Origin: Tomocerus qinae
Taxonomy: Eukaryota; Arthropoda; Collembola; Entomobryomorpha; Tomoceridae
Reading direction: 5' to 3'
Length of the DNA stretch: 64,000 nucleotides
Assembly (NCBI GenBank): GCA_020055645.1
Contig: CM034548.1
Coordinates: 10,292,001-10,356,000, forward strand
The translations under genes and the position numbers were made by a program. This document shows positions 1,262 to 4,200 of this stretch, in pieces (position 1 is the stretch's first letter; every line of letters starts with the position of its first letter). Below the pieces are notes generated by a model. The model made no database searches, was not told the DNA's origin, and worked only from the letters and a program-made list of their open reading frames with translations.

Positions 1262-4200
1262 TTCGAGAATGGCTCGAGAAAGCAAAAGAAGAATTCGAAG
1301 AAAAGTGGAGGAATCCCTCTGGGGTAAGTATTTTAAGTCAAAGTATTGATGTAAAAGTTTTCAATGCCATGCGGGTGTGAGTGTATATATATACACCTAC
1401 ACGAGAATCCACTACAACTTACTTACAGTTACAACATCGTAAATCTAGTGAATGAAATGAATGAATATAATGCCTTATCTTACGTTGGAGTTGGAGTACA
1501 TTTCTAAGATTTCCATTGGAAGTCGTCTGTCCTAAGGTTTCTTTTATGGATGTAGTTCAATGTTCAATCCAAGTCCTATTATTGTTTACAAGAGATATCA
1601 TTTTGTTGGGGTAACTTTTTACTACCTTTCCTGGCTTACATATACACATACTAAACGTATTCAACTCATTTCCTTTGATTTGCAAAGAGATACGCTGACG
1701 CTAACCTCCAGACGATTACCTACTAGTTGCTTTGTCTCGTTTTGTATTTACGTCAGACTTTTATTTTAATGACAGTTGAGCTCAAGTTTTGATGTTTCCC
1801 CGGGCTCAGAAATGAATAAAGTGCATTTTAATGATTGTGTGAACATCTAGAGTGGCTCGACGTTAGATGACTTTGATCGACTGAAGACACTAGGAACAGG
1901 GTCGTTTGGCCGTGTCATGCTTGTTCAGCACCGATCCACCAAAGAATTCTATGCAATGAAGATACTGGATAAACAAAAAGTTGTCAAACTGAAGCAGGTT
2001 GAACACACCCTGAATGAAAAGAAAATTCTGCATGCTATCAACTTCCCCTTCCTGGTCACACTCAAGTATCATTTTAAGGTATGTCATTTCATTCTCTCCC
2101 GTGATTAGACAACACATGAATGCATTCATAATAATATAATTAAACGCCGTAATCTATCTAACCTCCCTCTTGCCACAATTGCCCATTGTCAACGAGCGCA
2201 GGTCAGTGAAGCTCCCCTCTCAATCGACAGACATGAACAGTGTTGCTCAGCATGACTAGGTTAATCATTGTCATCATCAGAGACTGGCTGGTATTAAAAT
2301 CCTCCATTGCATCCTCACTTACTCTATAGTAAAAATAGCTCGTCTTTATTGTCCAAATGTCATTGAATATTTACTTGTCCATGCAATTTTCAAAATTATG
2401 GAGCCCGTGAGCTTCGACTCACAATAATTATGGGAGTGGTTTGTTTATCGTGTGCTTTATATATACACTACTTTATATATACACCAGCCAGTTCCTTTTA
2501 ATGGATTCTTGGGTTCAGATGAGCACAATGCTATGTGAATCCAACTGGGTCAAAATTACATGATCTACCTAAGTTGATGCGCAACTACTGTGTATATCTC
2601 TGTACGTGATACTAATACTCATCTGTTCCGTAGTAATAATATTATAATGGGAAATAGGAGCAAGCGAGTTAGTAGGATGAATACTCACGTACATTTACAT
2701 GTATTAACTAATCTTGCTCTTCTTTTTCTACGACGACACACACTCTACTACTTATCTATTCTTAATATATAAATAAGATAGTATAATTGTGTATGTGTAG
2801 ATGTACATAATTATAAGAAATGTATATGTCGTCTAGTATTAATATTATTACGGAATTTCAAGTATTGGAGGTATTATACTTGCTCTGTCGACTATAATAA
2901 AGTAGTACTTGTACAAACTAAGTAGTACTTGACTATTAGTCTGCCCCTCAATTGCAAATTGGAATTGAATGTATCGAGGTAAATGAATGTAAATGAAAAG
3001 AATGAGAATGATGAGAATCGCGAGCCTTTTCTAGGATACGACCAACTTGTACATGCTGATGGAGTACGTGAACGGAGGAGAAATGTTTTCTCATCTTCGC
3101 AAACTCGGAAGATTTAGGTAGGCGGAAATTTGATTATGTATTTTCTAATTGATATTGTTGTTTGACCTGTTACAGGACAATTCCAATCTATACATGGTAC
3201 TAGAGTATATCCCCGGAGGGGAAATGTTTTCCCATTTGAGGAAAACAGGTCGATTTAGGTAAGCATAGTGCTCATCCTTTAGAAAACCATAAATGGTGGA
3301 AGCATGTTCTCGCTGGTTCATCTCATCCTTCTCACTGTTAATGTAGTGAGCTTCCGTGCATTTAGACTCTACTACCTTTAGCCCTTAGCTTGCCGTCGTA
3401 TTCTCTGGCGGTTTTCCCAGCATGAGCCGTGATGCACAATGCAAAATCTTATGGACTACATCTCTATGTATTTCAATACTAGTGCATTCTAATTTAGTGC
3501 AGTGTAATAAACTATGTGTTGCGGTATCCTCTTAACTCACAAACAAGTTTACGTCCTTCTTCTTTTATATAAATGCAAATTTAATATAATCCGCATTCAG
3601 TTTGGCAGACAGACAGACGATCATCACTGCCCTTTAATACTTGCTTAATACACTACAAGTTACAACTTGCAGCTATACTCCGCCTTGGAGCACTCTTCGA
3701 AATATCCAAACCTACGTCTTTTATATCCCACCTCGCAGTAGTGGGATTCTTTTTATGCCCCTATACTATTCAAATCAAACAGATCTGATTAAATTCCTTG
3801 CTCTCAATTTTTATAAATTATATTATTTCTAAATTCCATTCGCTAACTCCCAGTCAGATTTTTATTTTCTCTAATAAAAGCAAAGAAAGCAGAAGAATAT
3901 ATTAATTTTAATATATTAATTAAACGTATTGTCCATTATTATACATAATATTTTTTGTGAAATGTTGATAATTACAGAAGTTTAAAAAACATTTTTGCTT
4001 GAAGATTCGTGTGTGTTAGAATGTGCATGTATTTTAACATTGTTTTTTTGCAGAGGTTCGTGGAGAGTAATCTTGCATTGGCGTCATTTAGAGTGGAGTC
4101 TCTTTATGCACACACCTTAGGTGTGTATCTGTAGTTGCCCTGCTGGTATGATAGTGGTGTTACTTGCATTGTAGTTGTAGAGCTGCCCATGCCTGCCCAG

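Follow-up and report, generated by a model that had tools for sequence, protein, structure and literature searches.

An apparently mutually exclusive exon pair at the gatekeeper and hinge of the protein kinase A catalytic-subunit gene of Tomocerus qinae

Alternative exons in PKA and other kinase genes

The alternative cassettes of the gene for the catalytic subunit of protein kinase A (PKA-C) in Aplysia, termed A1 and A2, are reportedly internal and replace the segment that follows exon 5 (exon 6). That alternative splicing in this animal yields two PKA catalytic subunits is stated in the title of Beushausen 1988, as cited in PMC9531652. In C. elegans, too, a single PKA-C gene, kin-1, has alternative exons, including some for the C-terminus; alternative N- and C-termini are described in the available text of PMC3771449, which makes no mention of an exon swap at the hinge. 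For schistosome and nematode PKA, the corresponding excerpts of PMC2724707 and PMC3784516 mention only N-terminal splicing or isoforms. Tandem, homologous, mutually exclusive exons that lie over the ATP site of a kinase are known from FYN, where they distinguish FynB from FynT (PMC9741552, in part). FYN, however, is a tyrosine kinase, and the segment swapped there comprises the SH2 linker and the N-terminal part of the kinase, rather than the gatekeeper and hinge.

The PKA-C gene described here lies in a stretch of 64,000 nucleotides of Tomocerus qinae DNA ('the window'). Like that of Aplysia, it appears to yield two catalytic subunits by splicing, but in this gene exon 6 is single and it is exon 5 that is doubled. 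A tblastn search of the window matched exon 6 once within the PKA gene, and so gave no duplicated exon 6 of the Aplysia kind; the other match in the window covers 9 residues (60499-60525, E 0.34). Among the matches listed in the literature on splicing, mostly papers outside subscription, none describes a swap of exon 5 in PKA-C. A 2025 survey of crustacean PKA and PKC (PMC12608923) never uses the words 'exon', 'hinge' or 'gatekeeper', and its available text does not decide between alternative splicing and other origins for decapod isoforms. PKA-C is among the best-studied of kinases, and is very conserved. Natural isoforms that differ only at the gatekeeper, the hinge and the next helix would test those residues in a living animal, independently of engineered analogue-sensitive mutants.

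The gene and its doubled exon 5

Judged by its sequence, the gene in the window is a complete, canonical PKA catalytic-subunit gene, orthologous to PRKACA/B. Its exons are listed below, with numbers and names that we take to follow the vertebrate PKA-C gene.

C3:10276733, some 15 kb before the window begins: exon 1, 43 nt, MGNAATKKGDPAEN, with a PKA-like N-terminus
1262..1323, + strand: exon 2, 62 nt
1851..2078, + strand: exons 3 and 4, fused, 228 nt, from the glycine loop onward
3035..3117, + strand: exon 5A, 83 nt, 27 residues, Met gatekeeper, hinge EYVN
3118..3175, + strand: spacer between 5A and 5B, 58 nt, with the branch-point-like word CTAAT at 3145
3176..3258, + strand: exon 5B, 83 nt, 27 residues, Leu gatekeeper, hinge EYIP
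5631..5757, + strand: exon 6, 127 nt
5907..6185, + strand: exons 7 and 8 and the first part of exon 9, fused, 279 nt
6322..6426, + strand: second part of exon 9, 105 nt, preceded by an intron at LLQ/V
10078..10209, + strand: alternative last exon, ending in a stop of its own; it exchanges the C-tail, which contacts the ATP pocket
11095..11220, + strand: canonical last exon and end of the gene

Exon 1 was picked among six ATGGG frames by its PKA-like N-terminus, and the coding part has seven introns. Set against PRKACA and PRKACB, with the vertebrate exon boundaries as we assume them, exons 3 and 4 and exons 7, 8 and 9a are joined, exon 9 is split, and exons 5 and 10 are doubled. What is shared with that family is the core, residues 16-350 (PMC3625193, in part), the length of which is unchanged: both isoforms of the spliced model have 350 residues. 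The model begins with MGNAATKK and contains FEEKW, in agreement with the MGNxxxxK and FxxxW that PMC12608923, in the text available, gives as the mark of invertebrate PKA-C1. Over the last 335 residues, the B isoform is identical to mammalian PKA-C alpha (the chain of PDB 5n3n) at 282 positions and the A isoform at 280. With some 84% identity to a solved PKA and a core of unchanged length, the mapping of residues from one to the other is plain.

Exons 5A and 5B are adjacent and homologous, equal in length and phase, and have intact splice sites. They share 56 of 83 nucleotides and 20 of 27 residues, and use the same codon for 10 of these 20. The coordinates, the two 83-nt lengths, the 58-nt gap, the frame and the 20 identities had all been given in the initial annotation, and all were the same when re-measured. 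The acceptors read ...ccttttctag/GAT (5A) and ...acctgttacag/GAC (5B). The donor of 5A, TAG/GTAGGC, agrees with the consensus at 6 of 9 positions, and that of 5B, TAG/GTAAGC, at 7. For the gene's five remaining donors inside the window the score is likewise 6 or 7; the splice sites of the pair are ordinary. No additional copies of exon 5 were found in the introns by tblastn at E up to 1 (nor at E up to 0.1): the A and B peptides matched 5A, 5B and, at chance level, one place on the minus strand of the window (7459-7364, E 0.28). Searched for as a pattern in relatives, the pair gave 7 matches in a viral collection and 15 in a bacterial and archaeal one, where little was expected; none was confirmed.

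Both copies join in frame to the exon that ends at 2078 and to the one that starts at 5631. Because 83 is not a multiple of three, inclusion of both copies, or of neither, breaks the frame. The spliced model accordingly runs to 350 residues with A alone or with B alone, and meets a stop after 147 residues when A and B are joined and after 111 when both are left out. Mutually exclusive use, as the initial annotation proposed, is strongly implied by this arithmetic, together with the existence of a paralogue that carries an A-type copy between the same flanking segments (discussed below). We regard the pair as real and, by its appearance, functional.

Exon 5 encodes residues 112-138, which include the gatekeeper and the hinge (VMEYVPGG in mammalian PKA). 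The pocket residues had been named correctly from the start: alignment with the 5n3n chain places Met at gatekeeper position 120 in A and in mammalian PKA-C alpha, and Leu in B, while hinge residues 121-124 read EYVN in A, EYIP in B and EYVP in the mammal. A keeps mammalian Met120 and Val123, and differs at 113, 114, 119, 124, 134 and 135. In B, the mammalian residues retained are DNS, Val119 and Pro124, and the differences fall at 120, 123, 134 and 135. The motif GGEMF, the Glu of which we take to be the one that binds substrate, is identical in all three. The seven of 27 residues at which A and B differ from one another lie around the gatekeeper, the hinge and the helix after the hinge. Met versus Leu at the gatekeeper is a mild change. 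The isoforms may differ in ATP affinity, sensitivity to inhibitors or binding of the regulatory subunit, as the initial annotation suggested, but any such biochemical effect would probably be mild.

A second, A-type gene and the origin of exon A

Most probably, exon 5 was duplicated in tandem within a canonical PKA-C gene, and the copies are used singly, one per mRNA, to give two 350-residue kinases that differ at the gatekeeper, hinge and following helix. Wrong combinations would be cleared by nonsense-mediated decay, and the 58-nt spacer perhaps helps against the joining of A to B. B would be the conventional version and A an older, selected variant, an mRNA of which, with one intron retained, may have been retrocopied onto contig C4. 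The likely role would be to tune the kinase in certain tissues or stages, rather than to abolish activity, through flexibility of the hinge (Pro124 to Asn) and packing around residues 119, 120 and 123.

Much of the evidence for A comes from the C4 gene, which was found by a search of the whole genome (match at C4:17409709).

C4:17409592-17410741 (L012 9592 to L013 741): second PKA-C gene, with an A-type exon-5 segment and one GC-AG intron, 97 nt

This gene encodes 350 residues (E 1.1e-193 to the 5n3n chain). Its sole intron lies at LLQ/V, the same site as in the window gene, and the six other coding introns of the latter are absent, such that one of seven is kept, as in a copy made from a largely spliced mRNA. 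Its exon-5 segment matches A in 26 of 27 residues and 67 of 81 nucleotides; for B, the figures are 21 of 27 and 57 of 81. Of the seven residues that distinguish A from B, six are as in A and one is as in B, counted by eye. Outside exon 5, the two genes use the same codon at only 116 of 264 residue-identical positions (35 of 77 plus 81 of 187), and their split is therefore old. Within exon 5A, 12 of the 27 codons differ from those of C4, 11 of them silently. When neutral drift was simulated at 0.2, 0.4, 0.75 and 1.5 substitutions per site, none of the 2000 runs made for each rate kept 26 or more of the 27 residues; a segment drifting freely would not hold them. We relied on codon counts and simulation because dN/dS (NG86/YN00) was saturated in most segments; the lone YN00 value, for segment 9b, was dN 0.188 and dS 1.566. 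These features fit an A-containing mRNA that was retrocopied long ago, with A under selection since, and they suggest that the A version really is used. The codon divergence further suggests that a poly(A) tract and target-site duplication would by now be lost. A tree of the kinase without exon 5 gives no clear branching order for the window gene, the C4 gene and mammalian PKA; that of exon 5, built on 27 residues, is weak, and our conclusions draw on neither. According to the text available from PMC3625193, every invertebrate examined had at most one close PKA-C homologue; this genome differs in having a second, which makes the C4 gene itself unusual.

Were A a dead or dying pseudo-exon left over from the duplication, with B alone in use, one might expect its weaker donor, and also the closer match of B to mammalian PKA-C alpha (23 of 27 residues against 21 for A). 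A pseudo-exon would not, however, be expected to retain an open frame and intact splice sites, still less 26 residues in common with a gene so long separated, an outcome that simulated drift never produced; we consider this reading highly improbable. A could also act by disrupting the frame, with A+B mRNA degraded, PKA-C levels lowered and B the sole form of the protein that matters. The early stop in A+B mRNA is indeed a poison-like arrangement, but a poison exon has no need of a conserved protein sequence, and A conserves its own. The joining of A to B may, moreover, be poor, since the spacer is shorter than all seven of the short introns measured in this genome, a small sample made up of the C4 intron and six gaps, of about 75-147 nt, that were bridged in kinase loci by tblastn at the level of alignment only; its CTAAT lies about 30 nt from the 5A donor. 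That A serves this purpose is very unlikely.

Likeness between A and C4 might alternatively be the work of gene conversion, rather than of retroposition of an A-containing mRNA. The longest identical run in the alignment of the two genes, 23 nt, sits inside exon 5A, where nucleotide identity is 83% versus 74% elsewhere, a level towards the top of the range that 13 of 255 other 27-codon stretches reach. Against this, the number of silent codon differences in the segment means that any conversion must itself be old, and conversion leaves the loss of six introns from the C4 gene unexplained. The paralogues on contig C5, which share Asn124 and a few other residues with A, are weak evidence in the same direction. 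We consider conversion unlikely, and retroposition of an A-containing mRNA the better account of the C4 gene.

Contig C5 holds diverged PKA-like paralogues (in L014, L015, L016 and L017), of which two are separated by roughly 12 kb; the one in L017 has in-frame stops and appears broken. Counted by eye at the seven differing positions, matches to A and B stand at 4:0 for C5:12180329 and 3:1 for C5:12192621, compared with 2:4 for mammalian PKA and 2:0 and 1:1 for two PRKX-like genes. As Met120 and Val123 are mammalian too, A is marked only by residues 113, 114, 119, 124 and 135; of these, C5:12180329 has Thr114 and Asn124, and C5:12192621 has Asn124 and Leu135. This lends weak support to a descent of the C5 genes, too, from an A form. 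Paralogues derived from FYN each retain one of the two FYN exons (PMC9741552, in part), to which the A-type C4 gene is a parallel; the C5 pattern, too, would resemble FYN.

Exon choice, the second C-tail and the rest of the window

Thirteen inverted-repeat pairs were listed for the introns on either side, and two of these pairs touch the splice sites of 5B.

2518..2532, + strand: putative intronic element, complementary to 3262-3276 at the 5' splice site region of 5B
5463..5479, + strand: putative intronic element, complementary to 3171-3187 at the 3' splice site of 5B

Prompted by this list, and so post hoc, we compared duplex energies with those of shuffled sequences for 12 combinations, each of six splice sites being set against each of two introns. 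The 5B donor paired with 2518-2532 at -29.6 kcal/mol, an energy matched by one shuffled sequence in a set of 100 and by one in a set of 500, and the 5B acceptor with 5463-5479 at -26.0 kcal/mol, a value reached by 0 of 100 and 0 of 500. These were the two most extreme of the 12 tests, both at exon B; in the other ten, 6 to 90 of 100 shuffles were as low. Among random 30-mers from the window, 0 of 160 and 3 of 160 deviated equally. Two stable potential duplexes, one over each splice site of 5B, are thus a lead on exon choice, perhaps of the Dscam-like kind, that is only suggestive. The Rbfox-type word TGCATG occurs 3 times in the intron after 5B (4024, 5423 and 5442) against 1.03 expected, which is not significant (35 of 500 shuffles had as many).

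The alternative last exon encodes a C-tail that can be aligned with that of PKA (38% identity to the canonical last exon, E 1e-5). In it FDDY becomes FDPV, with loss of the tyrosine, and Phe327, the sole adenine-binding residue outside the kinase core (PMC3625193, in the text available), is kept. The pyrimidine tract at the acceptor of this exon is poor, 0.36 versus 0.45-1.00 in eight other acceptors (one of them scored at 1854 instead of 1851). Alternative C-termini are a feature shared with kin-1 of C. elegans. Combined, 5A or 5B and the two C-tails could form four PKA kinases and a switch in the adenine pocket, with the two RNA duplexes clamping the splice sites of B to choose or hide it, and A copied into an independent gene; as a whole, this scheme is doubtful, though conceivable. 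The C4 copy, frozen as A, and the alternative C-tail offer a route by which tuning of the pocket in cAMP signalling could be tested.

Three neighbouring kinase genes that we call PRKX-like, by resemblance, lie on contig C1 near 93.84-93.92 Mb (L019-L022). Elsewhere in the window, Pfam matches mark three further genes.

19308-19703, - strand: group 1 glycosyltransferase, presumably ALG2-like
39386-39784 and 43025-43420, + strand: sodium:neurotransmitter symporter
51129-51878, + strand: rhodopsin-type receptor
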